Shown piece by piece: positions 42,241 through 64,000 of a stretch of DNA of 64,000 bases. The notes below the pieces were generated by a model that made no database searches, was not told the DNA's origin, and was given only the letters and a program-made list of their open reading frames with translations. This DNA is from Agilicoccus flavus (GTDB lineage: Bacteria > Actinomycetota > Actinomycetes > Actinomycetales > Dermatophilaceae): assembly GCF_014857905.1 (NCBI RefSeq), contig NZ_JACYXE010000001.1, positions 62,001 through 126,000 on the forward strand. Direction: 5' to 3'. The translations under genes and the position numbers were made by a program. Positions within the stretch are counted from its first letter, which is position 1. Each line of letters starts with the position of its first letter.

Positions 42241-43317
42241 TCACCAGAGGCGGCGGTACGCGGCGGCCGCCTTCGGGTTCTGCGGGGCCTCGGACCACAG
42301 GCTGCTGCGCAGGTAGTCGGCGGGCTCGTTGAAGTAGTTCTCGGCGAGGAGCAGGCCGCGGTTGACGCTGAAGAAGCGGTGCATCGCCGTGACGAAGAAC
42401 GGGTTGTCGCCGTAGCCGCCCGCGCCGGTCTTGACGACGCCCCACTCGGGCACGGTCAGCTTCTTGCGGTGCGCCCGCGCGAAACCGGCGACGTCGTGGA
42501 TGCCGACGGTCGTCGCGGGGGCGACCGCGCGCCGCCAATCGGCGTTCGAGCGGGCCTTCGTCGCGTTCCAGTCGTAGACGTCGACGCCGATCGCGTCGAC
42601 GACGTCGTCGCCCGGGTAGAGCTTGGTCAGCGCGTCGAGCCGGTTCGACTGCCCACGCAGCGGGAAGCCGGCGCTCACGTCGAACTCGACGACGAACCGC
42701 CGCGACGTGCCCTTGAAGATCTTCGCGACCCGGCGGAAGGCGGCCCGGTACTCCCCCGCACGGTCGGCGGTGGTCTGCCACGGGTACCAGTCGCCGTTGG
42801 CCTCCCAGCCGATGCGCACGATGGCGTCGCCGCGCCCTCGGGAGGCGAGGTCGCGGGCGACCTTGCGGAAGTCGGCGTCGTGGCGCCCGGCGGCGACGTC
42901 CCGCAGCGACGACGAGCCGTCCGACGGCAGCAGGGGCAGGCCGTACATGAGGCGCCCGCGGAACCCGCGGTAGGTGTCGATGTGCCACGTCGAGTTCCGC
43001 AGCTCACGCCACGATCCCCGCTCGGGGTAGGTCTGCGCGACGCTCGTGGGGGTGCCGCGCCAGGTGCCGAAGCGGGTGGTGCGGGCCGCGGACAACCGTC
43101 CGCCGGTCCACGCGCCCGAGAGCCACCGGCGCTTGCCGCCCGCGGCCGGCAGCGCGCCGGGGGACGCCGGCGACGCCGCCGGCTCGGCGGGGGCCGCGGC
43201 GACGGGCGAGGCGGACGCGGGGACGGCCGCGCCGACGAGCGTGGCGGCGGTGAGGACCGCGACGAGAGTGGGGGCGACGCGGCGGCGAGCAGCCGCGGCA
43301 GGGCGCGCGATGTGCAT
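42241..43317 (-). CDS. Secreted GH26-like glycoside hydrolase
   Basis: A 358-residue exported protein with a signal peptide ending near ASASPVAA and an Ala/Pro linker, then a (beta/alpha)8 domain. The acid/base Glu is in IVRIGWEANGDWYPW (E171) and the nucleophile Glu in KKLTVPEWGV (E290), the arrangement of GH26-type mannanases/glucanases. A YPGDDVVDAIGVDVYDW segment separates them. It likely cleaves a beta-linked glucan or mannan outside the cell. A related but inactive copy forms the C-terminus of the large protein at 59005-62352. ATG at 43317. Confidence 0.88.
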   Translation of the reverse strand: MHIARPAAAARRRVAPTLVAVLTAATLVGAAVPASASPVAAAPAEPAASPASPGALPAAGGKRRWLSGAWTGGRLSAARTTRFGTWRGTPTSVAQTYPERGSWRELRNSTWHIDTYRGFRGRLMYGLPLLPSDGSSSLRDVAAGRHDADFRKVARDLASRGRGDAIVRIGWEANGDWYPWQTTADRAGEYRAAFRRVAKIFKGTSRRFVVEFDVSAGFPLRGQSNRLDALTKLYPGDDVVDAIGVDVYDWNATKARSNADWRRAVAPATTVGIHDVAGFARAHRKKLTVPEWGVVKTGAGGYGDNPFFVTAMHRFFSVNRGLLLAENYFNEPADYLRSSLWSEAPQNPKAAAAYRRLW

Positions 43318-51358: not shown

Positions 51359-51551
51359 ATGACTCCCACGATCGAGACGCCTTTCCTCATCGCCGAGCAC
51401 GTTCCACATGTCACCGACTCCCTCGTCCCCGCCGGGGCACCGTGGGAGTCGGCTTTGGTCGCGGACCACTACGAGCTTCTGGGCATCGACGTCGAGCGGC
51501 TGCGCGACCTCCTCGGCCTCGAGGAGCAGGAGCGTCCGGCGCCGGGCCGAG
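51359..51551 (+). other. Coding-like segment in a different frame ahead of the HNH gene (possible displaced N-terminus)
   Basis: From ATG 51359 (ribosome site GAAGAGA) a frame encodes a natural-looking start (MTPTIETPFLIAEHVPHVTD, then LLGIDVERLRDLLGLEEQE) with normal high-GC codons. It degrades into Arg/Gly-rich translation after about residue 62. The HNH frame, offset by one base, looks nonsensical over the same DNA and becomes protein-like right where this one fails. Confidence 0.5.
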
Positions 51552-51557
51552 CCGCCG

Positions 51558-53450
51558 ATGGACGCGGCGGCCCCCGCGCAACCGGAGCGCGGCGGGTCGG
51601 GTGCGCCCACCGCACCCACCGCACCCCAGGCGTGCGAGGCGCCCGCGGAGTCCGCCTCTCGCGACGACACGCCTCGAGACACCGGGTGCGAGCACGCGCC
51701 CGGGCACGAGAAAGGCGTCGCCGGCCTGTTCGAAGAGCTGCGGGAGCTGGAGGCGGAATCGGCGCGGATCGAGCTGCGCCGCGCGGAGGTCCTGGGCCGA
51801 CTCATCGCGGCGCAGACCGCGACGGACCTCGCGGGCGAGCCCGAGGCGGGGCCGGCACGGCGGCGGGAGGTCGCGGCGCAGGCGCGGTCCGCGGTCGTGG
51901 ATTCCGCGGTCGCGTCGTGCGGGGGTCGGCGGGGGCCCTGGCTGGGCCGCGCCGGCCTCGCCCAAGCGGCACCGACGGTGGCCGAGCCGCTGACCGCGGC
52001 CGTGACAGCCGGGGAGCTGACCTTCGAGCAGGCGTGCACCGTCGTCGAGGAAGTGGACGCCCTGGAGGTGCCGGCCGAGGTGCGGGCGGCCATCGCTGCC
52101 GCGGTCGCCGCGTACGCGGCCCGTCGCCGGAGTCGGACCGGCGCCCCGGCGGGGCAGCGGGAGTTCCGCGCCTGCCTGCGTCGACAGACGATCAGGCACG
52201 CGAGCAGCCGCACCCGCCGCTCCGCCGCCGCGGCCCGGCGGGCCGTGTGGATCCGCACCGAGCACGACGGCGCTGCCTCCCTCGGCATCCGCGGCGGCGA
52301 CGCCCGCTGCGCCGGCGCCTACCGCCGCATCGACGCCATCGCCCGCGCCCTGCGCGGCGGCGGCGACCGGCGCACCCTCGACCAACTGCGCTCCGACATC
52401 GCCCTCGACCTGCTCCTGTTCGGTCGCCCCGCCCCCGGCGCCCCCACCAGCACCGACCACCCCGACCACCCGGCCGCCGGCTGGCCGGTCGCCGTCGTCG
52501 ACGTCGTCATCTCCGCCGCCGCCCTGCTCGGCGCGAACGACGAACCCGGCCTCGTCGAAGGCATCCCCGTCGCCGCCGAGACCATCCGCGCCCTCGCCCA
52601 CGGCCGCGACTCCCGCTGGCGGCGCATCGTCACCGACCCCGCCACCGGCTACGCGATGAACGCGGTCGTCAACACCTACCGGGCCCCGGCCGACATGGCC
52701 CGCGTCGTCCGCGCCCGCGACGGCCGCTGCCGCGCCCCCGGCTGCGACCGACCCGCCCACGACACCGACCTCGACCACGTGAACGAACGCCGACACGGCG
52801 GACCCACCTGCGCGAACAACCTCCAAAGCCTCTGCCGACGGCACCACTCCAAGAAGACCCGCCACCACTGGGCCGCCACCCTCGCCCCCGACGGCACCGT
52901 CGCATGGCACCTCCCCGACGGCCACACCTACACGACGTTCCCGTACAACTACACCGACATCGGCGTCGACACCCCCGTCGAGCCCTCGACCCCCGAACCG
53001 GGCCAGGACGGCGGATCAGGACCGCGGCCCGGCCAGGCCGGAGCCACCCACCCCGGTGACGGAGGACACCACCGCCGACCGCGACCTCCTCGACACCTGG
53101 TTCCGAGGTCGCGAGGAGCACCTCCGCGAGCAGATCACCGACCTGCGCGCCGCGCTCGCCGCAGAACGCGCGGCCCACACCGCCGCCCGCGAGGCCCTCG
53201 ACGGCCACCGCGTCGCCGGCCCTCCGTTCTGAACGGCGACCCGCGAGCCGCCCATCGCCACCGTCCGCCCACGAACCCGGCGACGCCGCCGCCACTGGTT
53301 CTCGAGCCGACCACGACCGCGCCGGCACGGAGGACCAGTCTCTGCCGAGCCGTCCGGGGCGGCCTCCGTTCGGCGCGGCCGATGCTGTCACCTCGACTCG
53401 GCTCGTCCCCCGGCCGACGCTCCCGGGAGGCGCCCAGGCCCCGCAACTAG
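51558..53450 (+). CDS. DUF222 / HNH endonuclease family protein (frame possibly disrupted at both ends)
   Basis: A protein of the DUF222-HNH family very common in actinobacteria. The central part contains AVTAGELTFEQACTVVEEVD and the later RRIVTDPATGYAMNAV. The HNH nuclease motif follows as CRAPGCDRPAHDTDLDHVNE and CANNLQSLCRRHHSKKTRHH, with metal-binding Cys and the catalytic His. The frame reads on to 53450, but after about 53040 the translation turns into Arg/Pro-rich sequence unlike a real tail, while another frame there looks natural. The start is also doubtful (ATG 51558 has no ribosome site). Such genes are thought to be mobile or phage-related nucleases of unknown role. Confidence 0.75.
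   Translation: MDAAAPAQPERGGSGAPTAPTAPQACEAPAESASRDDTPRDTGCEHAPGHEKGVAGLFEELRELEAESARIELRRAEVLGRLIAAQTATDLAGEPEAGPARRREVAAQARSAVVDSAVASCGGRRGPWLGRAGLAQAAPTVAEPLTAAVTAGELTFEQACTVVEEVDALEVPAEVRAAIAAAVAAYAARRRSRTGAPAGQREFRACLRRQTIRHASSRTRRSAAAARRAVWIRTEHDGAASLGIRGGDARCAGAYRRIDAIARALRGGGDRRTLDQLRSDIALDLLLFGRPAPGAPTSTDHPDHPAAGWPVAVVDVVISAAALLGANDEPGLVEGIPVAAETIRALAHGRDSRWRRIVTDPATGYAMNAVVNTYRAPADMARVVRARDGRCRAPGCDRPAHDTDLDHVNERRHGGPTCANNLQSLCRRHHSKKTRHHWAATLAPDGTVAWHLPDGHTYTTFPYNYTDIGVDTPVEPSTPEPGQDGGSGPRPGQAGATHPGDGGHHRRPRPPRHLVPRSRGAPPRADHRPARRARRRTRGPHRRPRGPRRPPRRRPSVLNGDPRAAHRHRPPTNPATPPPLVLEPTTTAPARRTSLCRAVRGGLRSARPMLSPRLGSSPGRRSREAPRPRN
53056..53232 (+). CDS. 58-residue helical peptide: separate small gene or displaced C-terminus of the HNH protein
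   Basis: From GTG 53056 a third frame encodes a coherent helical, coiled-coil-like sequence (DLLDTWFRGREEHLREQITD, then LRAALAAERAAHTAAREALD) ending in VAGPPF and TGA at 53232. It overlaps the HNH frame, whose own translation is poor here. A one-base frame change near 53040 would give the HNH protein this tail. Confidence 0.5.
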   Translation: MTEDTTADRDLLDTWFRGREEHLREQITDLRAALAAERAAHTAAREALDGHRVAGPPF

Positions 53451-53459
53451 GGTGGCGGG

Positions 53460-54947
53460 ATGCTCGTGCCGCTCCCCGTCCGACTCCCGCCCCGGCCAGG
53501 CCGGGGACGCGCCGCCGGCGCAGTCGGTGCCGTCCTGACCGTCGTGCTGCTCGTGCCGGCCTGCGCGGCCGACCCCGCGCCCCCGGCCGCCGGCCCCACG
53601 GGCGCCTCGAGCTCGCCCGCCGCCCCCGGCGCGACCCCCGGTACCCCGCCCGCCTCCGGGCCGGCGTCCGCCGCGCCCTCGGCGACCCCGACGGCGACCG
53701 CGACCTTCCCCGCGTCCGTCATCGGCCGGCGGATGCGGTGGTTCGTCGGGCAGATGAGCACCGACCCCGTGGCCGGCGACCTCGCGACGTACTTCGATTC
53801 GACCTTCACCCAGCAGGTCCCCCCGACCCAGCTCCTCGTCATGCTCGGGCAGCTGCGCACCCAGGGGCCGTGGACGGTCGAGAACGTGACGAGCGACGGC
53901 GACTCCGGCGTGGCCACGCTCGTCTCCGCGCGCGGCGGCCGCTTCACGCTCTCGATGACGGTGACCAAGGCCGGCCTCATCGACGGGGCCCTGCTGCGCA
54001 CCGTCGCCGCGGGCTCCGCGGCGACGTCGTGGTCCGGCGTCGACGCCCGCCTGAAGCAGGCCGCTCCGGACGCCTCGGTCCTCGCCGTCACCCTCGACGC
54101 GGCGGGCCGGCCGACCGTCGTGCACCGGTCCGGCTCGCAGGAGGCCCAACCCGTCGCCTCGATCTTCAAGCTGTACGTCCTCGCCGCGGTGGCCGAGCAG
54201 GTCGCCGCGGGCTCCCTCGCCTGGGACCGGCAGCTCACGCTGACCGCCGCCGACGTCTCCCTCCCGAGCGGCGACCTGCGCAACAGCCCTCCGGGGACGA
54301 AGATCACGGTCCGCGACGCCGCGCAGAAGATGATCGCGGCCTCCGACAACACGGCCGCCGACCTGCTCCTGCGCACCGTCGGCGAGCCGGCGGTCCTCGC
54401 GGCCGCGACGCGCGCCGGCAACGACCACCCCGAGGGCATCACGCCGTTCCTGTCGACCCGGCAGATGTTCTGGCTCGCGTGGGACGGCTCCGACGCGGCG
54501 AAGGCGGCCCGCGCCGGCTGGAAGGACGCCGACGCCGCGCAGCGACGGCGCCTGCTGTCGGCCGTGTCGATCACCGGGCCCGGCCCCGCGTCACAGGACG
54601 ACGCCGCGCACTGGTCCGAGGGGATCGAGTGGTTCGCGACGCCCGACGACGTCGTCGAGGCCCACGTGCGGCTCCAGCGGCTCGCCGCCGCCCCGGCCGG
54701 CGCGCCCCTGCGCGAAATCCTCTCGAAGAACGGCGGGGTCGAGGTCCCTGGCTGGTCCTACCAGGCCTTCAAGGGCGGGAGTGACACCGGCGTGCTCGGC
54801 ATGTCGTTCTACGGCGAGGTCGGCCGCGGGGCGAACGCGCGCCGCCAGGCCCTGGTCGTCCTGGGGCGCGGCACGTCCGCCCTCGACGAGGCGACCTTCG
54901 TCGCGGCCACGACGGACGCTGCAAAGCTGCTCTCCGCGGCCGAGTAG
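53460..54947 (+). CDS. Secreted serine beta-lactamase-fold lipoprotein with ORF12-like N-terminal domain
   Basis: A 495-residue exported protein. The signal ends LLVPACAADP (possible lipobox), followed by a Ser/Pro/Ala linker of about 50 residues. Residues about 88-195 are an NTF2-like domain (RRMRWFVGQMSTDPVAGDLA) as in clavulanate-cluster ORF12. The class A beta-lactamase/PBP domain has the nucleophile motif SIFK (S234-K237), SDN (S295-N297) and a KGG triad (K438-G440), so it is likely catalytic. It may be a beta-lactamase, a peptidase or an esterase; the N-terminal domain argues against a plain beta-lactamase. ATG at 53460. Confidence 0.88.
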   Translation: MLVPLPVRLPPRPGRGRAAGAVGAVLTVVLLVPACAADPAPPAAGPTGASSSPAAPGATPGTPPASGPASAAPSATPTATATFPASVIGRRMRWFVGQMSTDPVAGDLATYFDSTFTQQVPPTQLLVMLGQLRTQGPWTVENVTSDGDSGVATLVSARGGRFTLSMTVTKAGLIDGALLRTVAAGSAATSWSGVDARLKQAAPDASVLAVTLDAAGRPTVVHRSGSQEAQPVASIFKLYVLAAVAEQVAAGSLAWDRQLTLTAADVSLPSGDLRNSPPGTKITVRDAAQKMIAASDNTAADLLLRTVGEPAVLAAATRAGNDHPEGITPFLSTRQMFWLAWDGSDAAKAARAGWKDADAAQRRRLLSAVSITGPGPASQDDAAHWSEGIEWFATPDDVVEAHVRLQRLAAAPAGAPLREILSKNGGVEVPGWSYQAFKGGSDTGVLGMSFYGEVGRGANARRQALVVLGRGTSALDEATFVAATTDAAKLLSAAE

Positions 54948-54985: not shown

Positions 54986-55474
54986 TCACCGCCGCTGCCA
55001 CTTGATGGCCTTCTCGCGGATCCGGTCGGCCACCGCCTCGGGCGACTCGGGTTCCCCGGCGGCGTAGGCGAGCAGGAGCTCCTCGAGGATCGTCGTCAGC
55101 GGGACCCCCTCCATCTCGGCGCGCGCGTGCGCCCGGGCGAGGGCGCGCGGCGGGAGCCGGAACACCGCCGGCTTCTTCGGCGCCTGCGCCGGGGGCAACT
55201 CGTCCGGCACGCGCCCGCGCCGCGCGGAGGCGGACGTGCGGCTCGCGAGGTCGACACGCTTGCGTCGGCGCATGACACCGAGCGCCTCGTCGTCCGTGAT
55301 GGGCCCGCGGTCGGGATGCCACTGCAGCGGCTTGAGCTCCCCGGGCAGCGCCTCGGCGCGGCGCGGCTCGCGCACCTCACCCAGATCCTCACCGGTCACG
55401 AAGACCCCCGGCTGCCATCGTTCTCCTTCCAGCGCGCCCACGGCGGGCGAACCGCGCAGGACAGGATAGGTCAC
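54986..55474 (-). CDS. Probable ribbon-helix-helix DNA-binding partner of the MinD/ParA-like ATPase
   Basis: A 162-residue basic protein. The middle (RRRKRVDLASRTSASARRGR) is positively charged and a C-terminal segment KPAVFRLPPRALARAHARAE with GVPLTTILEELLLAYAAGEP resembles a ribbon-helix-helix fold. It lies 26 bases downstream of a MinD/ParA-like ATPase gene on the same strand, as ParB-like partners do. Start GTG 55474 is uncertain. Role in partition or positioning is inferred. Confidence 0.65.
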   Translation of the reverse strand: MTYPVLRGSPAVGALEGERWQPGVFVTGEDLGEVREPRRAEALPGELKPLQWHPDRGPITDDEALGVMRRRKRVDLASRTSASARRGRVPDELPPAQAPKKPAVFRLPPRALARAHARAEMEGVPLTTILEELLLAYAAGEPESPEAVADRIREKAIKWQRR

Positions 55475-55500: not shown

Positions 55501-56682
55501 TCAGGGGGTCCGGAACCGGGACGTGATCGCGGCCGCGATCTCGAGATACGCCTCCCGGGTCTCCGGTGAGAGCAGGTCCCACTCGATGACGGCGCCGTCG
55601 GCGACGTGCGGGTCCGCCGGCACGACGACGAGGTCGGAGGCCCGCCCGAGATGCTCGAGCACGGCGTCCTTGTCGACGCTCCGGCTGACGAGGTCCTTGG
55701 CCGTGAGCACGACGATGCTCGTGCGCGCGAGGTGCTCGAACCCGTTGTCCTCGAGCCACTGGATGGTCTCGGCCGCCCGGCGGGCCCCGGTGATGGACCA
55801 CGCGGCCGGCACGACGACCGTGTCGGCGTACTCGAGGATCCCCTCCATGAGCGGGTGGGTCACCCCGGTGCCGCAGTCCACCTGCACGAACGAGTAGTAC
55901 TGCCGGATGACCTCCATGATGCGGCGGAAGTCGGCGGCGGTGAGCGAGTCGCCGAGCGTGGGGCTCGGCTCGCCCGGCAGCATCGTCAGGCGGCCCGAGG
56001 TCACCGTGAACCGGGAGAGGTCGTCGAGGCTCGCGATGCTGTCGACCTCGCGCGCGAGCGCGGAGACGCCCGAGAGCTGACGCCCGACGACGCGTTCGGC
56101 GAGGTCGCCGGCGTCGGGGTTGGCGTCGATCGCGAATACCGGGTCGGGGCGCAGGTTCGACAGCGCGAGCGAGGTCGCCGCCGTCGTCGACGTCTTGCTC
56201 ACCCCGCCCTTGAGGCAGAAGAACGCCGTGACGTGCTTGCCGCGCAGCTGCGTCGCGATCTGCCGGTCGCGGTCGAGCTCCCGCGCCTCCCGGGCCCCCG
56301 GGCCGGGGTTCCACCGGCCGCCGGTCGCCGTGTAGGCGAGAGACTGCCAGCCCTGGCGCGGCCGGACCGACCGCCGCCGCAGCATCGGCGCGGGCTCCGA
56401 CGTCGACCACGTCCGGGCGGGGGCCGCCGCCGGTTCCGTCGTCGCGGCCGCCGTGTTCGAGGGCCCGGCCGGCGCCGTGGTCATCGCCGACGGAGTGGTC
56501 GCCCCCGAGGCAGCCGGCGACGCGCCGCTCTCCGCGGGGCCGGGCGTCCCGGTTGCCGCCGACGCGGGCGTCGCCGCCCCGGCGGCGCCGACGTCGGCGC
56601 GGTTCGTCTTGTCGCGGTTCGTCTTGTCACGGGCGTACGGGCTCGGCGGGAACCCGGTGCGCTCGGGTCGTGCTGCGGTCAT
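55501..56682 (-). CDS. MinD/ParA-like ATPase with long disordered N-terminus (EspI-type architecture)
   Basis: A 393-residue protein. The first 100 residues are Ala/Pro/Thr-rich with a short repeat RDKTNRDKTN. Then comes a segment RPRQGWQSLAYTATGGRWNP seen before the ATPase in type VII secretion-associated EspI-like proteins, and a deviant Walker A KGGVSKT at residues 158-164, with Ser where ParA has Gly. Later motifs VFAIDANPDAGDL and FVQVDCGTGV complete the MinD fold. Such ATPases position protein complexes on membrane or DNA. ATG at 56682 has AGGAG upstream. It leads a two-gene unit with the ribbon-helix-helix gene. Confidence 0.9.
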   Translation of the reverse strand: MTAARPERTGFPPSPYARDKTNRDKTNRADVGAAGAATPASAATGTPGPAESGASPAASGATTPSAMTTAPAGPSNTAAATTEPAAAPARTWSTSEPAPMLRRRSVRPRQGWQSLAYTATGGRWNPGPGAREARELDRDRQIATQLRGKHVTAFFCLKGGVSKTSTTAATSLALSNLRPDPVFAIDANPDAGDLAERVVGRQLSGVSALAREVDSIASLDDLSRFTVTSGRLTMLPGEPSPTLGDSLTAADFRRIMEVIRQYYSFVQVDCGTGVTHPLMEGILEYADTVVVPAAWSITGARRAAETIQWLEDNGFEHLARTSIVVLTAKDLVSRSVDKDAVLEHLGRASDLVVVPADPHVADGAVIEWDLLSPETREAYLEIAAAITSRFRTP

Positions 56683-56833: not shown

Positions 56834-57352
56834 TCAGGCGCAGGCCGACCGGGCCCGCTCACGACGACGCGCGGCGGCGTTGTGGCCGCGGCACTCGTCG
56901 CAGCGGCATCCGCGACGGTAGCTGTTCAGCGAGCCGGACCCGCGGGCGTGGGTCGGCGTGCGGTCGACGTCCGAGCCGCGCGAGCGCGACGGGACGAGCA
57001 CGCCGGACGAGGCGCGCGACGGGGTGAGGAGCTCCGCGAAGAACTTGCGGCGCTGCTTCGTCGTCGTGGACGCCCGGTAGCCGATGTCGTTCATCCGCAA
57101 CGCCTCCGCCAGGCAGTCCTCCCACACCGGGCAGGTCGAGCAGATGCGCTGGAGGCGGGCCGGCACACGGTCCTCCTCGTACTCCGGCGTCCACTCGTTC
57201 GCGCCGACCCCCGTGTCGCGCCGGCACGACGCCGTCTCGTCGAACGAACGGCTCGGGTTGGCGATGCGCGCCTTGAGCGAGCTCATGGACAGCGCGGCGT
57301 CGACGTTCGTCGAGAGCCCCCGGGCGCTGTGCAGGTCTTCTACGGTCCGCAT
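56834..57352 (-). CDS. WhiB-family Fe-S regulator with extra C-terminal cysteine cluster
   Basis: A 172-residue protein. The four iron-sulfur cysteines are C43, C71, C74 and C80 (motif CSTCPVWEDC). The usual GVWGGTT turn is changed to GYRASTTTKQRR. A second cluster at the C-terminus, YRRGCRCDECRGH, is a C-x-C-x2-C motif common in phage zinc proteins and rare in WhiB proteins. WhiB proteins sense redox/NO and bind sigma factor. ATG at 57352 follows AGGGGGAAC. The gene lies upstream of the MinD-like gene on the same strand. Confidence 0.9.
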   Translation of the reverse strand: MRTVEDLHSARGLSTNVDAALSMSSLKARIANPSRSFDETASCRRDTGVGANEWTPEYEEDRVPARLQRICSTCPVWEDCLAEALRMNDIGYRASTTTKQRRKFFAELLTPSRASSGVLVPSRSRGSDVDRTPTHARGSGSLNSYRRGCRCDECRGHNAAARRRERARSACA

Positions 57353-58043: not shown

Positions 58044-58550
58044 ATGGCGAATCAGGCCACGGCCGCCGCCCCGGCATCGTCCGCCGAGGACACGTCGGCC
58101 GACCCCGGCGACGCCACCCCGCCCGGCCCCCCGCCGGGCTACCTCACGGCCGAGATGATCGCCGCCGACCTCGCTCGCGTCACCGGCAAGAAGGCCGTCC
58201 CCGCCTCGACGATCCGCGCCATGGCCAGCCGGGGTCAGCTCCCGGCTCCGGCGCCGTGCCGGTGGGGCCGGCGAACCCTGTGGGAGTCCGAGGCGATCGC
58301 GGCGTGGCTCGCCCGCCGCGAGGCCAAGCACGTACCGCCCGGCGTCGTGCGCCAGATCCAGCGCCGCCTGGCCGCCCTCGACGAGCAGTCCCGCGAGACC
58401 GGCAACGACGCCCGCCTCAAGCAGGGCGTCCGCAACGCCTACCGCCGCGGCCTGTCGCTGCAGCAGATCGCCGACGCCATCAAGGTGAAGAACGGCGACC
58501 ACCACCCCACCCGCGAGGCCGTCCGCTCCCGCTTCGGGCCCTACCTCTAG
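58044..58550 (+). CDS. Helix-turn-helix DNA-binding protein of unknown role
   Basis: A 168-residue protein. After about 30 disordered residues, residues about 35-95 read like an excisionase/MerR-type HTH (YLTAEMIAADLARVTG, PASTIRAMASRGQLPAP, GRRTLWESEAIAAWL), and a second helical half follows (RRGLSLQQIADAIKVKNGDH) that may be another HTH. ATG at 58044 has the very strong ribosome site AGAAGGAGG, suggesting good expression. It is on the plus strand, upstream of the surface-protein pair; it may regulate that pair or whiB (inference). Confidence 0.8.
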   Translation: MANQATAAAPASSAEDTSADPGDATPPGPPPGYLTAEMIAADLARVTGKKAVPASTIRAMASRGQLPAPAPCRWGRRTLWESEAIAAWLARREAKHVPPGVVRQIQRRLAALDEQSRETGNDARLKQGVRNAYRRGLSLQQIADAIKVKNGDHHPTREAVRSRFGPYL

Positions 58551-59004
58551 GCGCGACCGGCCCCCTGGACGCCTCCGGTCGCCGGCCGGCGCGGCGATCG
58601 CCCCGCAGGTCACTCCCGCCTGTGCGCTCTGTCGCCCTGGTTTCTACGCCCCGCCGGGATGCCTGCCGCACCCTCCACGCCACGGATGCAGTGGCCGTCG
58701 ACTCTCCCGGCACGCGCGACCCAGGTGCGCGGGCCGATTCGGGGGCAGCGGATCGACCTCGGCCGAGTGCGTGACCGGCGTCGTCGCGGGCCGTCCTGGA
58801 GGCGCGGCGCGCGAGCCTCCAGGCGTTCATTTTTCAGGTCCACATCACGAGACGAGGCCGTGAATCGCCAGCGTCGTTGGCGGGGACGCGGTTCCGATTC
58901 GTCCGAGTCGGCGGCACTCCGACGGGCCTGTGGACAACTCCGTCGGACGGCGATGTGGGCGGTCGCGCCGCCACTACTGTCACGGCGTCGCCCACCCCCT
59001 CCCC
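58551..59004. other. 454-base intergenic region, possible small RNA or leader
   Basis: No protein frame fits. It contains a terminator-like hairpin with a T tract (described separately) about 245 bases after the upstream stop, leaving room for an untranslated RNA, and then the promoter/leader of the large surface-protein gene. Confidence 0.4.
58795..58834 (+). terminator. Intrinsic terminator with T tract
   Basis: CCTGGAGGC (58795-58803) pairs perfectly with GCCTCCAGG (58815-58823) around an 11-base loop, followed after six bases by TTTTT at 58830-58834. It is rare in this window for a hairpin to have a real T run. Confidence 0.7.
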
Positions 59005-62000
59005 ATGATGTGGAGACAACTCGTGACCTCGCGCATCCCCGCCTCGTTCCGCCGACGTGACACCGGACGCGTCCCGCGCGCCCACGACGCCGACCTCCTC
59101 GCGAAGATCGGGGCTCGTGCCGCCGGGGCCACCCTGTTCGTCGCGCTGGCCGCCGGCGCGGGCAGCGCGGTCGCCCACGCGGAGACCGCACCACCCCCGG
59201 CCGACCACGAGGGCGTCGACCACGAACAGGCCTCCGACCGCGAGCAGGCCTCCGACCACGACGCCGAGGCCCGTCCCGACCAGCCCCAGGACCAGGACCA
59301 GGACCAGGACGAGGCCCCGACCGCCCCGGAGCCCCCGTCGTCCGCGGCGACGGCCTCCCCCGGCGGCGACGCCGAGAGCGGTGGCGGGGACGACGCTGCG
59401 CACGACACGACCGGCGGCGGGGACCGATCGGGCGGCGAGGACCGGTCCGGCGGCGACCGGCCGGCCAAGGCAGTCGCCGACACCCACGGCGAGGGCGGTG
59501 GCGGTGGCGGTGGCGGCGAACGATCCCAGGACGGTGCGGACGCCGCTCGCGAGACCCCCGACCCGGCACGCGCCTCCAGCACCGCCACGCCTGACACCGG
59601 GGACGAGCGCGAGCCCGAGCGCGGCGCGGAGCCCGCCCAGCCCTCGGACCGACCCGCGGACCCCTCGGCCGACTCGTCCGAGCCGAAGACGGGCCAGGAG
59701 GGCGAGCGCGGGGACCGTCCGCCCCCCGCCGAGACCGGCGAGGATGCGCACCCCGGCCCCGTCCCGACCGATGCGGCGCCGGATGCCACCACACCGACCC
59801 CCGACGACCACCCCGCGAGGACGGCGCCGGGCGCCGACTCGACGGCGTCGCCCTCACCCACCACCGACGGTCCCACCCCGGCCGGCCCGGCCGCGGCCGA
59901 TGCGGCGCCGACGACGCGGGAGTCGCCGGCCCGGCCGACGACCGCCCGACCCGCGTCGGAGTCGGAGTCGGAGCCGAGCACCCACGCCGCCGAGCAGGCG
60001 CCTGCGCCGTCCGCCGCGGGGAGCGCGGAGACGTCGGGGCCGGGCGCACCCGAGGGACCCGCGGTCGCGGCCACCTCGACCGAGCAGCCCACGGTGTCGG
60101 TGCCATTCGGGCAGACCGAGCGGCCGGGCGACGGGGTCGAGCCGGGCCCCGGGTCCGGACCGATCGGTCAGGGGCCCCGGGCGGGGCTGACCGGCGACGA
60201 CGGGACCGGTCCCGCGACCACGTGGGCCGCCGCGCGCCCCGCCGCACCGCCGAGCGGGCGCCCGACTCCCACCGCCGACGCGAGCGACGCGGTCGCCTCT
60301 CCCGAGAAGGAAGCCGCCTCCGCCGCTCCGGCCCGTGACGTCGCGCCGACGCCCAACGCCGCCTCCTCGTTCCACGCGATGTCGAGCGGGACGACGGGGT
60401 CCGGGCCCGTCGGCCCGGCCCGGCCCGAGCAGGTCGCCGCCGCGCCCGGGTCGTGGCGGGAGGTGAACGTCGACGACCTGTTCGACGACGTCCTCGAGTC
60501 GCTGTCCCGCGCCGGAGGCCCGGCCGATCGCGCGCCGGCCCCCGACCGAGCCCGGCGAGAGGACGACACGACGGCGGCCGCAGACGGGTCCGACGACACG
60601 CGGCGCCGGGCAGCGGAGGGCGACGACGCGGCGACACCTGCCCGGCCCGGCACGCCGACGCCGCGCAGAGACCTCTCGCCCGACACCGCGGTGGAGGACG
60701 ACCCGACCCCGGCGGCCCGCCCGAAGCCCGGCAGGGGAGCCGCGGACCGCAAGGCCACCCCGGCCGGCCCCGCGAAAAAATCCGACGAAGGAAAGGCCCG
60801 CGGGAAGGCGGACCCGAAGGCGGCGCCCGAGGCCGAGCGCGAGGACCGACCGCGACGGTCCGGGCGCGTCGGCGCGGCCGACGGCCCCTCGGCCGCCCGC
60901 GCGATCCGCGACGCCCTCGAGGACGTCACCGAGGGGATCGCCCGCGACCTCGAGCGACTCACGCGGCCGAACGCCTCCCGTCGCGACGCGGCCGACCCCG
61001 CGCCCCGGCGCACCGCGCCTCGCCCCGCGGCCACCACCGGCCGCGGCGGGGACGACCCTGAGGACCGTGCGTCCGACGGCGGCGCGGCGCCGCGCTCGGC
61101 GCCCCGCGCCGAGCGGCCGTCCCCGGCGGACGAGGACGCCGACACCCGCGACGACACCACCGACGGGCCCACCCCCGGCCGGGCCCCTGCCGGCCCGGCT
61201 CCGACCAGCCCCACGACGCCTCGCGGCTCGGCACCGACAGCCACCCGCAGGCGCGACTCTGCGCCCGACGCGACCCCCTCCTCGACCCCCTCTGGCTCGT
61301 CGACCCCACCGGCCGCGCCGCTCAGGCCCGCCGACCCGAGCCGAGACCGCCTCGGCGAGGGCGACGACACGCCGGCGTCGACCGGTCCGGCCCGTTCGTC
61401 GGCCACGCCGTCCACGTCGGCCTCCCCCAGGTCGACGGCGCCCACGAGCACCGTCGCCGGGCCCGACCGACCGGCCCCGGCCCGGCCGCCCCGCCCGCTG
61501 CCCGCTCCGTCCGGCCCCGACGCCCGCCAGGCGCCGAGCTACCCGAGCGCCCCGGCCACGCGACGCACCTGGCGCAGCGGCGCGAAGGTCGACGGCGCGC
61601 CGTCCCCCGCGCGCGAGGTCCGCAGGCGCCTCGGCCGTGAGCCCGACCTCGTCGCCGTCGAGATCCCCGCCCGCTCGTGGTCCGACGTCACCCGCCCGAG
61701 CGTCGTGCCCCGCGACCTCGCCTCGTTCGCCGGCCCGAAGGTCGTCTCCGCACCGCTCCTCGTCCAGGCCGCGACCCCTCGGGCCTGCGCGAAGGGCGCG
61801 TACCGGAAGCACTGGGAGTCCCTCGCGACACACCTGCGTCCGCACCTGCGCGGCGGCCTGACCGTCGAACTCGTCGACGTCCCGGCCGACGGCGAGACGG
61901 GCGCCTCGGCGAAGGTCCGCGCGGGCTGCGTCCGCGACGTGGCCTCCACGCTGCGGGCGCGCCTGCCCGGCGTGCACCTGGCGTGGGGCATCCAGCTCGG

Positions 62001-62352
62001 CGGTCGCCCCGGCGACGCCCTGCTCGACCCCCGCGTCCGGTGGCCGGGGGCCGCGTCCGTCGACGTCATCTCGCTGCGGGTGCCGCCGCAGACGCCCTGG
62101 GGGCGCCTCGTCAACGACCCGCGCGGGCTGGCGTTCTGGTCCGACTTCGCCCGGGCGCAGGGCCGGCGGGTCGCGATCTCGGACTGGAGCGTGCCGGCGG
62201 GCGACCGCGCCGACGGCGCGTACGTGCAGGACATGTTCGAGTGGCTCGCCCGCACCGCCCGCTCCGGCGGGCTCGCCTACGACGTCCACCGCCTCACCCC
62301 GGCCGGGGCCGACGCCGCGGCGAGCACCTACCGCCGGTTGTTCCACCCGTGA
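59005..62352 (+). CDS. Very long secreted low-complexity protein ending in a degenerate GH26-like module
   Basis: About 1,115 residues. A signal peptide (around LFVALAAGAGSAVAHAETA, likely cut after AHA, residue 59) is followed by some 780 residues of Pro/Ala/Asp/Glu/Arg/Thr-rich sequence with short repeats (QDQDQDQD; GGGGGGG). Two helical islands break it: VNVDDLFDDVLESLSRAG and RAIRDALEDVTEGIARDLER. The last 265 residues align by eye with the GH26-like hydrolase at 42241-43317 (CAKGAYRKHWESLATHL, RWPGAASVDVISLRV, RVAISDWSVP, ASTYRRLF). The acid/base Glu segment is gone (TVELVDVPADG), and the nucleophile Glu is Asp in SDWSVP. It is probably a wall-spanning stalk with a sugar-binding tip. The stop overlaps the next start by four bases (GTGA). 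Confidence 0.85.
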   Translation: MMWRQLVTSRIPASFRRRDTGRVPRAHDADLLAKIGARAAGATLFVALAAGAGSAVAHAETAPPPADHEGVDHEQASDREQASDHDAEARPDQPQDQDQDQDEAPTAPEPPSSAATASPGGDAESGGGDDAAHDTTGGGDRSGGEDRSGGDRPAKAVADTHGEGGGGGGGGERSQDGADAARETPDPARASSTATPDTGDEREPERGAEPAQPSDRPADPSADSSEPKTGQEGERGDRPPPAETGEDAHPGPVPTDAAPDATTPTPDDHPARTAPGADSTASPSPTTDGPTPAGPAAADAAPTTRESPARPTTARPASESESEPSTHAAEQAPAPSAAGSAETSGPGAPEGPAVAATSTEQPTVSVPFGQTERPGDGVEPGPGSGPIGQGPRAGLTGDDGTGPATTWAAARPAAPPSGRPTPTADASDAVASPEKEAASAAPARDVAPTPNAASSFHAMSSGTTGSGPVGPARPEQVAAAPGSWREVNVDDLFDDVLESLSRAGGPADRAPAPDRARREDDTTAAADGSDDTRRRAAEGDDAATPARPGTPTPRRDLSPDTAVEDDPTPAARPKPGRGAADRKATPAGPAKKSDEGKARGKADPKAAPEAEREDRPRRSGRVGAADGPSAARAIRDALEDVTEGIARDLERLTRPNASRRDAADPAPRRTAPRPAATTGRGGDDPEDRASDGGAAPRSAPRAERPSPADEDADTRDDTTDGPTPGRAPAGPAPTSPTTPRGSAPTATRRRDSAPDATPSSTPSGSSTPPAAPLRPADPSRDRLGEGDDTPASTGPARSSATPSTSASPRSTAPTSTVAGPDRPAPARPPRPLPAPSGPDARQAPSYPSAPATRRTWRSGAKVDGAPSPAREVRRRLGREPDLVAVEIPARSWSDVTRPSVVPRDLASFAGPKVVSAPLLVQAATPRACAKGAYRKHWESLATHLRPHLRGGLTVELVDVPADGETGASAKVRAGCVRDVASTLRARLPGVHLAWGIQLGGRPGDALLDPRVRWPGAASVDVISLRVPPQTPWGRLVNDPRGLAFWSDFARAQGRRVAISDWSVPAGDRADGAYVQDMFEWLARTARSGGLAYDVHRLTPAGADAAASTYRRLFHP

Positions 62353-64000
62353 GGCGACCCGATCCCGACGGACCGGACGGCCCGTCCCCCACCGACGACC
62401 CGGCCGCGGCCGGGGCCGACCCGTGGGGCGAGCTCGCCTCGGGCGCCGACGCGTCCGGGTTCGACCCCAAGGACGTCCCGCCCCGCCCGGTCGTCGAGGT
62501 CACCTTCGAGGTGGGGGCCGACGGGCGCACCTACGCCCGCGTCGACGGCCTCACCGTGCGCACGCGCCCCGGCGAGACCCCGCGACAGGCGGCCATGCGC
62601 ACGGTGCGCCACCTCGTCGACCGCATCGCGTCGGTGGACTCCTCCGGTCGCCGCTCCCCGGCCGTGTTCGCGCGCATCCACGGCCCGAACCGGACGAGTC
62701 GGCTCGTCGTCGCGCACCGCGACGGGCGGCTGTTCCTCCCGCCACAGCCCGGATCCACCACCACGCGGCCGGCGGCCCTCGTCGCCGCGACACCCGCCCT
62801 GCGCGTCGCCGGCCCCGGCATCGCCCTGGCCGCCGATTCGAGCCCGGACTCGGGACACACGGTCCGAACCCCGAGCACGACGACGGCCGGCGCCGCCACC
62901 GCCCTGACGGCCCGGTCGGAGTTCTCGAACGCGAGGTGGCCCGGCGTCGGGCGCGTGGGCGCCGCGTGGCAGGCGCCGGTCAAGGGCGTGGCCGCACCTC
63001 CCCCCGCCTACCCGCTCCCCACCGCGAGGCGCCCCGCCGACGAGACGACGGTCGGGCGCGCCGCGCCGGGCGACACCCCCGATCCCGGGGCCACCGGGGA
63101 CGAGGACGAGGCCTGGAGCCGCACGTTCCTCGACCGCGGTGCGGCGTCCGAGACCGGCGCTCACCCGTTCCGCCCTGCCGATGCCGACACCCGCTCCCAC
63201 CCCGGTCCGGCTCGCTCCGGCGCGGAGCACCCCGACGTCGCGACGCGGCTGCCCGGGCCCGGCGCGGAGGCGGCCGAACCGGCGGATCGGGCCGTCGAAC
63301 GCGAGGTCGACGACGTCGAGCACCCGGTCGTCGCCGCCGTCGATGAGCCCGCGTCGCCGGAGCCGTCGCCCGCCGCGCCCGCGGTCGCCCCCGACCTCAT
63401 CGGACTCGTCGCGCGGCGCGCTCCCCGCCGGACGGGGCTGCGCGAGCGGGGTCGGCGGTCCTCGCCGACCGCCGCCCGGGGCCGAGGACGCGCCCCGGCG
63501 CCCCCGCACGCACCGGCCCCCGCCGCCGCGAAAGACCCCGCCGCCCCCGGCGCGTCCGCCCTCGAGACCGCCCCCGGGCGGAGTTCCAGGCCCGTGCGCC
63601 CGCGCGGGACCCGACCGACCACCGCGCCGCCACCCCCGCGCTCGGCGGCCGGCCCCACTCCGCGCCGTCGTCTCGTGCTGTCGCGGCCGGTGATCGCGAT
63701 CCTCGCGGCCGCCGCGGTCGTGCTCGCGTCGGCGGGGTGGTTGATCACGAGCCTGCTCCGCCCGCCGAACGCGCCCGGCCCGGCCCCGTCGGCCTCGTCG
63801 GCCTCGTCGACCCGCCTGCCCGTGCCGCCCCCGCCCGGCTACACCTCGGACGTCCGCTGGAGCACCCCGGCGCTGGCGCGCGAGGCCGGCGCGGTCGTGG
63901 CCGTGGGCCAGAACCGGGCCGACCTCGCCTACGTGGCCGCCGACCGCAGGGTGCACGTCGTCGACGCGATGACCGGGACGGATCGCTGGTCGGCGCGGCT
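62349..64000 (+). CDS. Membrane protein with disordered cytoplasmic part and PQQ/beta-propeller-like exterior (3' truncated by window)
   Basis: From GTG 62349, overlapping the previous stop as GTGA, the frame stays open to the window end (about 550 residues). An N-terminal beta-rich region (about residues 45-130: PVVEVTFEVGADGRTYARVD, FARIHGPNRTSRLVVAHRDG) is followed by a long Pro/Ala/Arg-rich stretch. A single membrane helix (about 440-465, RPVIAILAAAAVVLASAGWL) comes next, then an outside part whose last visible stretch, YVAADRRVHVVDAMTGTDRW, looks like the first blade of a PQQ-type beta-propeller. It is translationally coupled to the secreted GH26-like protein and probably works with it at the envelope. 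The remainder lies outside the window. Confidence 0.8.
   Translation, partial: MRRPDPDGPDGPSPTDDPAAAGADPWGELASGADASGFDPKDVPPRPVVEVTFEVGADGRTYARVDGLTVRTRPGETPRQAAMRTVRHLVDRIASVDSSGRRSPAVFARIHGPNRTSRLVVAHRDGRLFLPPQPGSTTTRPAALVAATPALRVAGPGIALAADSSPDSGHTVRTPSTTTAGAATALTARSEFSNARWPGVGRVGAAWQAPVKGVAAPPPAYPLPTARRPADETTVGRAAPGDTPDPGATGDEDEAWSRTFLDRGAASETGAHPFRPADADTRSHPGPARSGAEHPDVATRLPGPGAEAAEPADRAVEREVDDVEHPVVAAVDEPASPEPSPAAPAVAPDLIGLVARRAPRRTGLRERGRRSSPTAARGRGRAPAPPHAPAPAAAKDPAAPGASALETAPGRSSRPVRPRGTRPTTAPPPPRSAAGPTPRRRLVLSRPVIAILAAAAVVLASAGWLITSLLRPPNAPGPAPSASSASSTRLPVPPPPGYTSDVRWSTPALAREAGAVVAVGQNRADLAYVAADRRVHVVDAMTGTDRWSAR

Follow-up and report, generated by a model that had tools for sequence, protein, structure and literature searches.

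Hydrolase folds that have lost catalysis can persist as binders: the chi-lectins are non-catalytic lectins with a glycosidase fold, in which an inactivated hydrolase has been retained as a binder. Outside the cytoplasmic membrane, BamB acts as a scaffold. In Streptomyces, the chromosomal cmdABCDEF genes are related to the conjugal-transfer genes of SLP2 and to SCO6878, SCO6880 and SCO6881, and are needed for normal sporulation and septation (PMC2782261). Here, we describe a locus of Agilicoccus flavus that couples a giant secreted protein, ending in a catalytically dead GH26-type barrel (the tip), to a membrane protein with an extracellular beta-propeller. The window, i.e., the whole stretch of 64,000 nucleotides that was analysed, comprises positions 62001-126000 of its contig in the 4.23-Mb genome (G000). 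We lean, by a small measure, towards the view that the pair belongs to a surface module of the Dermatophilaceae in which a conjugation-related membrane part has been re-used to hold a non-catalytic, glycan-binding GH26 tip. While an inactivated hydrolase as binder and a conjugation-type adaptor were known before, our literature search, largely made without full texts, found no description of the giant-propeller pair or of its arrangement. The features on which the argument turns are as follows.

59005-62352, plus strand: open reading frame (ORF) of the giant protein, 1,115 residues; an alternative upstream GTG at 58930 gives 1,140 residues
59005..59181, plus strand: signal peptide of the giant, likely cleaved after AHA (hydrophobic stretch and AxA-like site, pattern-based)
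59182..61554, plus strand: disordered stalk of approximately 780 residues, rich in A, P, D, G, R, T, S and E (composition)
61555..62349, plus strand: catalytically dead GH26-type barrel, the tip (AlphaFold2 model, fold match, missing Glu pair)
62349-64829, plus strand: bitopic membrane propeller protein (GTG start, relatives); 64000 is the window edge and the rest is in extended coordinates
62460..62754, plus strand: N-terminal domain of the propeller protein, cytoplasmic and conserved (alignment and profile search)
63687..63758, plus strand: transmembrane segment of the propeller protein, N-in by flanking Arg (read from the sequence)
63816..64000, on to 64826, plus strand: extracellular beta-propeller (model of the Piscicoccus orthologue, propeller matches)
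42241-43317, minus strand: GH26 paralogue with both catalytic Glu residues kept, the comparison enzyme (PF02156 E 1e-6; WEAN and PEWG motifs)

The original prediction, made from this DNA alone, had read the giant as a secreted protein of about 1,115 residues with a disordered stalk of about 780, and the ORF, the signal pattern and the composition bear this out. The residues V, I, L, M, F, Y, W and C make up a fraction of 0.05 of the stalk, compared to a minimum of 0.119 among 47 called whole proteins of the window and its extension. In six of eight orthologue frames, an AxA-like site comes after a hydrophobic segment. Pfam assigns the giant to no family at E <= 1, so that the PF02156 cut-off is not reached, and NCBIfam matches neither the giant nor the propeller protein at E <= 0.01. 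By reading, no sortase motif or membrane anchor was found at the C-terminus of the giant. In Piscicoccus, the stalk frame (L051:8722-10707) opens with a tandem DLPPGQAKKLDRTSDHEP-like peptide repeat and lacks a signal peptide, which probably reflects a frame break or an assembly problem.

Kinship between the last approximately 265 residues of the giant and the GH26 protein of the window had been proposed by eye. A direct comparison of the two gives no significant match (blastp E 0.10, phmmer E 2.2), and the link emerges via family profiles, which were trained partly on these proteins, via alignments and via structure. A sequence search of the PDB with the single tip returned one match, at the chance level of E 2. 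The AlphaFold2 model of the tip (mean predicted local distance difference test score, pLDDT, 84.9) has eight alternating strands and predicts a (beta/alpha)8 barrel, and its superposition on known structures agrees with the GH26 type. The first 20 Foldseek matches in the PDB are GH26 proteins or constructs designed from them or fused to them. In the VIA comparison, the tip aligns with the GH26 lichenase 2cip at Z 22.3, with a root-mean-square deviation (rmsd) of 2.9 over 247 residues; the first ten matches are GH26 (Z 20.7-22.3), and the next is the family-5 enzyme Cel5A at 18.3.

For the catalytic residues, eight tips, termed locus-1 tips here, were aligned in this order: the window (G000), G006 (Piscicoccus), G055 (Kineosphaera), G013 (Mobilicoccus pelagius), M. 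caccae, M. massiliensis, G041 and G014. Two further dead tips, from type VII secretion system (T7SS) loci of M. pelagius and M. massiliensis, bring the total to ten. All sites were read from one MAFFT alignment of 47 GH26 domains, i.e., these ten and 37 others (clade paralogues, domains of other actinobacteria and rows left doubtful by regular expression). Both catalytic Glu residues are absent from all ten dead tips. At the nucleophile position, at the end of strand 7, the locus-1 tips have, in the listed order, D, R, Q, R, R, R, Q and A; at the acid/base position, at the end of strand 4, they have T, D, D, G, G, A, G and P. The two T7SS-locus tips have H at the nucleophile place and P at the acid place. 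The alignments thus agree with the original prediction that the acid segment of the window protein is replaced and its nucleophile Glu is Asp, and none of the relatives keeps the pair. Among the 37 other domains, the acid Glu is found in all and the nucleophile Glu in 35, with exceptions in G073 (Arg) and L184 (position uncovered). L178 and L186 have Glu at both catalytic places in the alignment, the second of L186 standing in a poor context.

In both trees that were built, a 100/100 branch separates the dead tips from all other rows. The first has 35 rows, of which 24 are intact, and leaves out the phylum rows L178, L184 and L186, in which a motif seemed by regular expression to be lacking; the second has 47 rows, with these three and nine more restored. 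Catalysis was probably lost once, in the ancestor of the dead tips. Branches are long (1.4 for the window tip), leaving the branching order within the dead-tip clade uncertain, and support is weak (88/53) for L070 of G090 as the nearest intact relative. The alignment of the eight locus-1 tips has 35 columns without variation, so the fold is under selection; what is conserved is the barrel together with many aromatic residues. A Cys pair was considered as a novelty of the dead tips and dropped, as it also occurs in the intact L070 and is missing from the two T7SS-locus tips. The L070 protein (L070:7701-9314) is an intact GH26 enzyme with the Cys pair of the eight locus-1 tips, and perhaps represents the source subfamily of the dead tip.

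The second member of the pair is tightly coupled to the first. The TGA stop of the giant overlaps the GTG start of the propeller gene, as had been proposed, and a candidate propeller start lies -4 to +3 bases from the stop of the giant in seven of eight loci; in M. caccae, the start was not placed. The extended sequence also confirms that the gene continues beyond the window edge, ending at 64829. Its product consists of an N-terminal domain of approximately 100 residues, a long linker, one transmembrane helix and the propeller. For the Piscicoccus orthologue, the modelled propeller (pLDDT 83.5) is nearly all beta and matches BamB, tetrathionate hydrolase, EMC1 and WD40 propellers, with Z 11.8-14.4 among the 50 matches listed (BamB 8orr: Z 13.1, rmsd 5.2, 280 aligned residues; EMC1 9c7v: Z 14.4). 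The protein has no Pfam match at E <= 1, fits no PQQ or BamB sequence profile, and has no significant sequence match in the PDB; a distant relative, L059, gives a sub-threshold acido-empty-quinoprotein match. Of the earlier description of the exterior as a PQQ-type propeller, the propeller therefore stands, while the label "PQQ-type" is approximate, because propellers of all four kinds match.

Distant relatives link the propeller to conjugation loci. Among 15 distant propeller loci, seven contain SCO6880-family and/or VirB4-like genes (L059, L060, L160-L163 and L166). A MinD gene lies directly behind the propeller in four of these seven (L161, L163, L166 and, spread over two frames, L162; not in L059, L060 or L160). 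In all three loci scanned, the gene before the propeller encodes a wall hydrolase (VanY, SLT, M23), at a distance of about -4 (L163), 31 (L162) or 670 bases (L160); by eye, L059 is similar and L060 is not. The propeller proteins of L059, L060, L160, L162 and L163 recognisably have the N-terminal domain, which is also present in a MinD protein, L093 of G089 (E 3.5e-8). That it occurs in both hints that propeller and MinD work together, and the sequences suggest a common partner or a homotypic contact of the two. The same domain (beta-beta-alpha-beta-beta by eye) is weakly visible in the MinD proteins of L091 (G009), L161, L162 and L166. In L164, L165, L167 and L168, which belong to one genus of another family, the protein encoded after the propeller begins like a secreted one and has a hydrophobic segment at its C-terminus, possibly another secreted-partner arrangement.

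Upstream of the pair lie four genes that had been noted as its neighbours.

54989..55426, minus strand: ribbon-helix-helix (RHH)-like protein, directly behind the MinD gene (pattern and conservation)
55501-56682, minus strand: MinD/ParA-like ATPase with a Pro/Ala-rich N-terminus and a deviant Walker A motif, KGGVSKT (AAA_31 E 3.9e-5, below cut-off)
56834-57352, minus strand: WhiB-like protein with four Cys (C-x2-C-x5-C; PF02467 E 2.7e-5, above cut-off)
58044-58550, plus strand: helix-turn-helix (HTH) protein (HTH_17 E 0.005, below cut-off)

The HTH gene has the orientation of the pair and the other three are divergent. Pfam and conserved motifs uphold the ATPase, WhiB and HTH assignments, those of MinD and HTH below cut-off: the deviant Walker A pattern KGGxxK[ST] is found as KGGxxKT in all seven aligned MinD orthologues, and the WhiB Cys residues are conserved in 7/7. 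An extra C-terminal motif beyond the WhiB domain, GCRCDECRGHN in the window, recurs as GCRCDECR(G/S)HN in the seven. The RHH assignment holds by pattern and conservation and lacks an above-threshold Pfam match, a sub-threshold VbhA match being the most that Pfam gives. RHH genes were found in G000, G006, G014 and G041 and not in M. pelagius or M. massiliensis; the G055 contig ends before the gene could appear. Between genera, the locus-1 MinD proteins are 71-74% identical and the HTH proteins 69-76%. The predicted conserved neighbourhood is seen in part, with MinD, WhiB, HTH, giant and propeller genes together in five of eight species (G000, G014, G041, M. pelagius and M. massiliensis) and not linked or not seen in three.

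The module is flanked (window 51408-54947) by HNH-endonuclease and ORF12/beta-lactamase-fold genes, the latter adjoining it in G014 and G006 as well. All six clade genomes have a second MinD copy at another locus (in A. flavus, G000:C34:16408-17292, equal to L107:10008-10892), 62-76% identical to the MinD of the window. The six retrieved loci show no WhiB, HTH, tip or propeller match alongside. Second copies as parts of a T7SS or type IV secretion system (T4SS) were considered and rejected: their surroundings are helicase-nuclease, phosphodiester glycosidase, Tad-pilus-like (by reading) and housekeeping genes, and no machine common to all second-MinD loci examined was found.

For the distribution, we compared 97 related genomes, A. 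flavus included, and wider samples of 396 genomes drawn from the order and 396 from the phylum. Strong tip matches (E <= 1e-26) occur in 6 of the 97, and any match at 1e-3 in 10. The same six have strong propeller matches (any match in nine, three of them distant), HTH matches and MinD at no less than 62% identity, in two copies each; any MinD match at 1e-10 is found in 23. Seven loci were confirmed when contigs were scanned with the propeller alignment; they all belong to Kineosphaera, Mobilicoccus and Piscicoccus, genera of the Dermatophilaceae. In the order sample, which evidently did not include the other five clade genomes, 21 genomes have a propeller match at 1e-8, a strong one being confined to the window's own. 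In the phylum sample, 16 genomes have a tip match at 1e-5, and 11 of 14 retrieved loci contain both catalytic motifs by regular expression. The tip-propeller pair is restricted to one small group, and its named species are all Dermatophilaceae. Gene order kept across rearranged genomes adds more weight than co-occurrence does. Strain NJES-13 is described as motile, clustered cocci that produce exopolysaccharide (PMC8400323).

How the parts would act together can be sketched as follows. The giant would be exported by Sec, its long flexible stalk ending in the GH26 barrel. The barrel, having lost catalysis, would be kept as a binder, most likely of the cell's own exopolysaccharide or capsule, and the putative ligand would be the kind of glycan that the intact GH26 paralogues act on. 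A polysaccharide ligand is inferred from the GH26 fold and from the intact paralogues present in all six genomes, one of which lies in an exopolysaccharide-type locus. This locus of A. flavus (L061:3792-10543, and L067) encodes a malectin-malectin-GH26 protein together with a sugar transferase (PF02397) and glycosyltransferases. The propeller protein may hold the giant, with one transmembrane helix as anchor and the extracellular propeller as a docking scaffold, its cytoplasmic N-terminal domain facing the MinD-like ATPase; the products of the MinD, RHH, WhiB and HTH genes might determine where the device sits and when it acts. A conjugation-type element is the most likely source of the propeller-MinD combination, with the dead GH26 protein occupying the wall-hydrolase slot. 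A bolder extension, which we think improbable, is a Dermatophilaceae surface organelle of conjugational origin governed by MinD, in which the stalked tips, docked on the membrane propellers, anchor the cell's own polysaccharide at chosen envelope sites and hold or release dividing coccoid cells, with WhiB and HTH setting the timing over the life cycle.

A number of results weigh against the surface module. As the six genomes look like one clade, co-occurrence comes close to a single observation. In Piscicoccus (G006) and Kineosphaera (G055), the MinD-WhiB-HTH block lies apart from the giant-propeller pair, and in M. caccae it is not within the retrieved flank. The tip-holding frames of G006 and G014, two of eight, have no recognisable signal peptide, so that these giant genes are either broken, mis-assembled or differently built. 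The alignment behind the tip model held 11 sequences, from the window and the named species, and four of its rows are intact GH26 domains; a profile of the eight dead tips alone reaches GH26 mannanases at E 0.007 at best. In the MinD proteins of the clade itself, the N-terminal domain of the propeller protein was not detected. SCO6880 was not found in G000, G006, G013 or G014; G041 has a fragment and G055 a complete copy elsewhere in the genome. Eight of the 15 distant propeller loci (L058, L164, L165 and L167-L171) have no SCO6880 match either. Because of these eight, and because the window's own genome has no SCO6880, the direction of re-use could be the reverse.

Among other explanations, the propeller, dead GH26 protein and MinD could serve an ESX-like machine as T7SS accessories, the propeller replacing a missing EccB. 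Behind EccC (TIGR03924 E 4.6e-172) and close to EccD and WXG100 genes, M. pelagius and M. massiliensis have a second, paralogous propeller together with two GH26 proteins, one intact and the other a dead stalk protein; EccB was found in 0 of the clade's six genomes and in the two genomes used for comparison. In G065, a MinD relative with 27% identity adjoins EccC, and the window MinD may resemble the T7SS-associated EspI. G000 has one isolated WXG100 gene and no EccB match, and its EccC-like match is a 36%-identical FtsK-type protein only; both genes are on other contigs, and no EccC, EccD or WXG100 gene lies beside the window pair. At 1e-30, neither G006 nor G014 shows an EccC match, and the EccC locus of G041 has no propeller gene. 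In Kineosphaera (L140:1617-3578), EccC breaks off after approximately 650 residues, with unrelated genes behind it, the picture of a degraded T7SS locus. The pair is kept in genomes without EccC or with a degraded one and thus outlives the T7SS, and we consider the accessory role quite unlikely. Our literature search found nothing combining Dermatophilaceae with type VII secretion. The intact GH26 proteins beside EccC (L134:11396-13042, L136:11713-12954 and L066:7510-9273) share a C-terminal HGPVP(R/G) after a disordered tail.

A glycan sensor, rather than a mechanical tether, would fit the bitopic layout, the conserved cytoplasmic domain that recurs in a MinD protein and the regulators conserved alongside the pair: tip and propeller would signal the state of the matrix via the cytoplasmic domain to MinD, WhiB and HTH. 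However, the regulators are unlinked in Piscicoccus and Kineosphaera, and Pfam finds no kinase, sigma or anti-sigma domain in the module genes of the window; a sensor strikes us as unlikely. That the tip acts as an enzyme, through a different chemistry or different catalytic residues, we regard as very unlikely. Its conserved barrel and aromatic residues would suit an enzyme, and Asp stands at the acid place in G006 and G055 and at the nucleophile place in G000, but no tip is acidic at both places and 0 of the 35 invariant locus-1 columns are D or E. Finally, the resemblance of propeller and MinD to conjugation-locus genes, along with the missing SCO6880 in G000, could mark a decaying remnant of an integrated conjugative element with no present function. 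The high identity of MinD and HTH between genera, the lack of stops in the matched tip and propeller frames and the preserved coupled junction speak against decay, which makes this explanation highly improbable.

We therefore return to the module with a non-catalytic tip held by a re-used membrane part. What the original prediction had observed in the sequence is confirmed. Its interpretation, which had added a surface-display or wall-positioned machine, was right about most parts and is extended here, with the machine itself unproven; the conjugation and T7SS kinship of the propeller family is new relative to it and bears on the origin of the module. If the module is real, it would show how an actinobacterial group made a surface device out of a disabled glycosidase and a membrane part of the conjugation type. 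The conserved, clade-specific locus could be used for testing the envelope organisation of coccoid, often clustered cells. The propeller protein recurs in conjugation loci, in loci linked to type VII secretion and in stand-alone ones, which points towards a general adaptor, of which the literature search found no description.

Compared to described systems, the tip is like GH26 enzymes (mannanases and lichenases; PF02156) in barrel fold, strand and helix order and profile kinship, and unlike them in having lost both catalytic Glu residues and in being fused to the stalk. With the chi-lectins, the giant shares an inactivated hydrolase kept as a binder, a role that in the giant is a likely one; the chi-lectins come from another hydrolase family and have neither a stalk nor a coupled membrane propeller. 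BamB and the PQQ-like and WD40 propellers share the beta-propeller fold with the window protein, which, unlike BamB, is anchored by a transmembrane helix and has its own cytoplasmic domain. Type VII (ESX) loci house a paralogous pair beside EccC, EccD and WXG100 genes in two Mobilicoccus species, whereas the window pair has no such genes beside it and EccB is missing from the matches in all six clade genomes. The cmdABCDEF cluster sets a precedent for conjugation-related membrane clusters that serve development; its genes are different ones, and the word "propeller" does not occur in the main text of the source (PMC2782261). The actinobacterial SCO6880/VirB4 loci have a homologous propeller, MinD behind it in four of seven and a wall hydrolase before it in the three scanned; unlike these loci, the window module is without a T4SS core and carries a dead GH26 stalk protein in place of the wall hydrolase.

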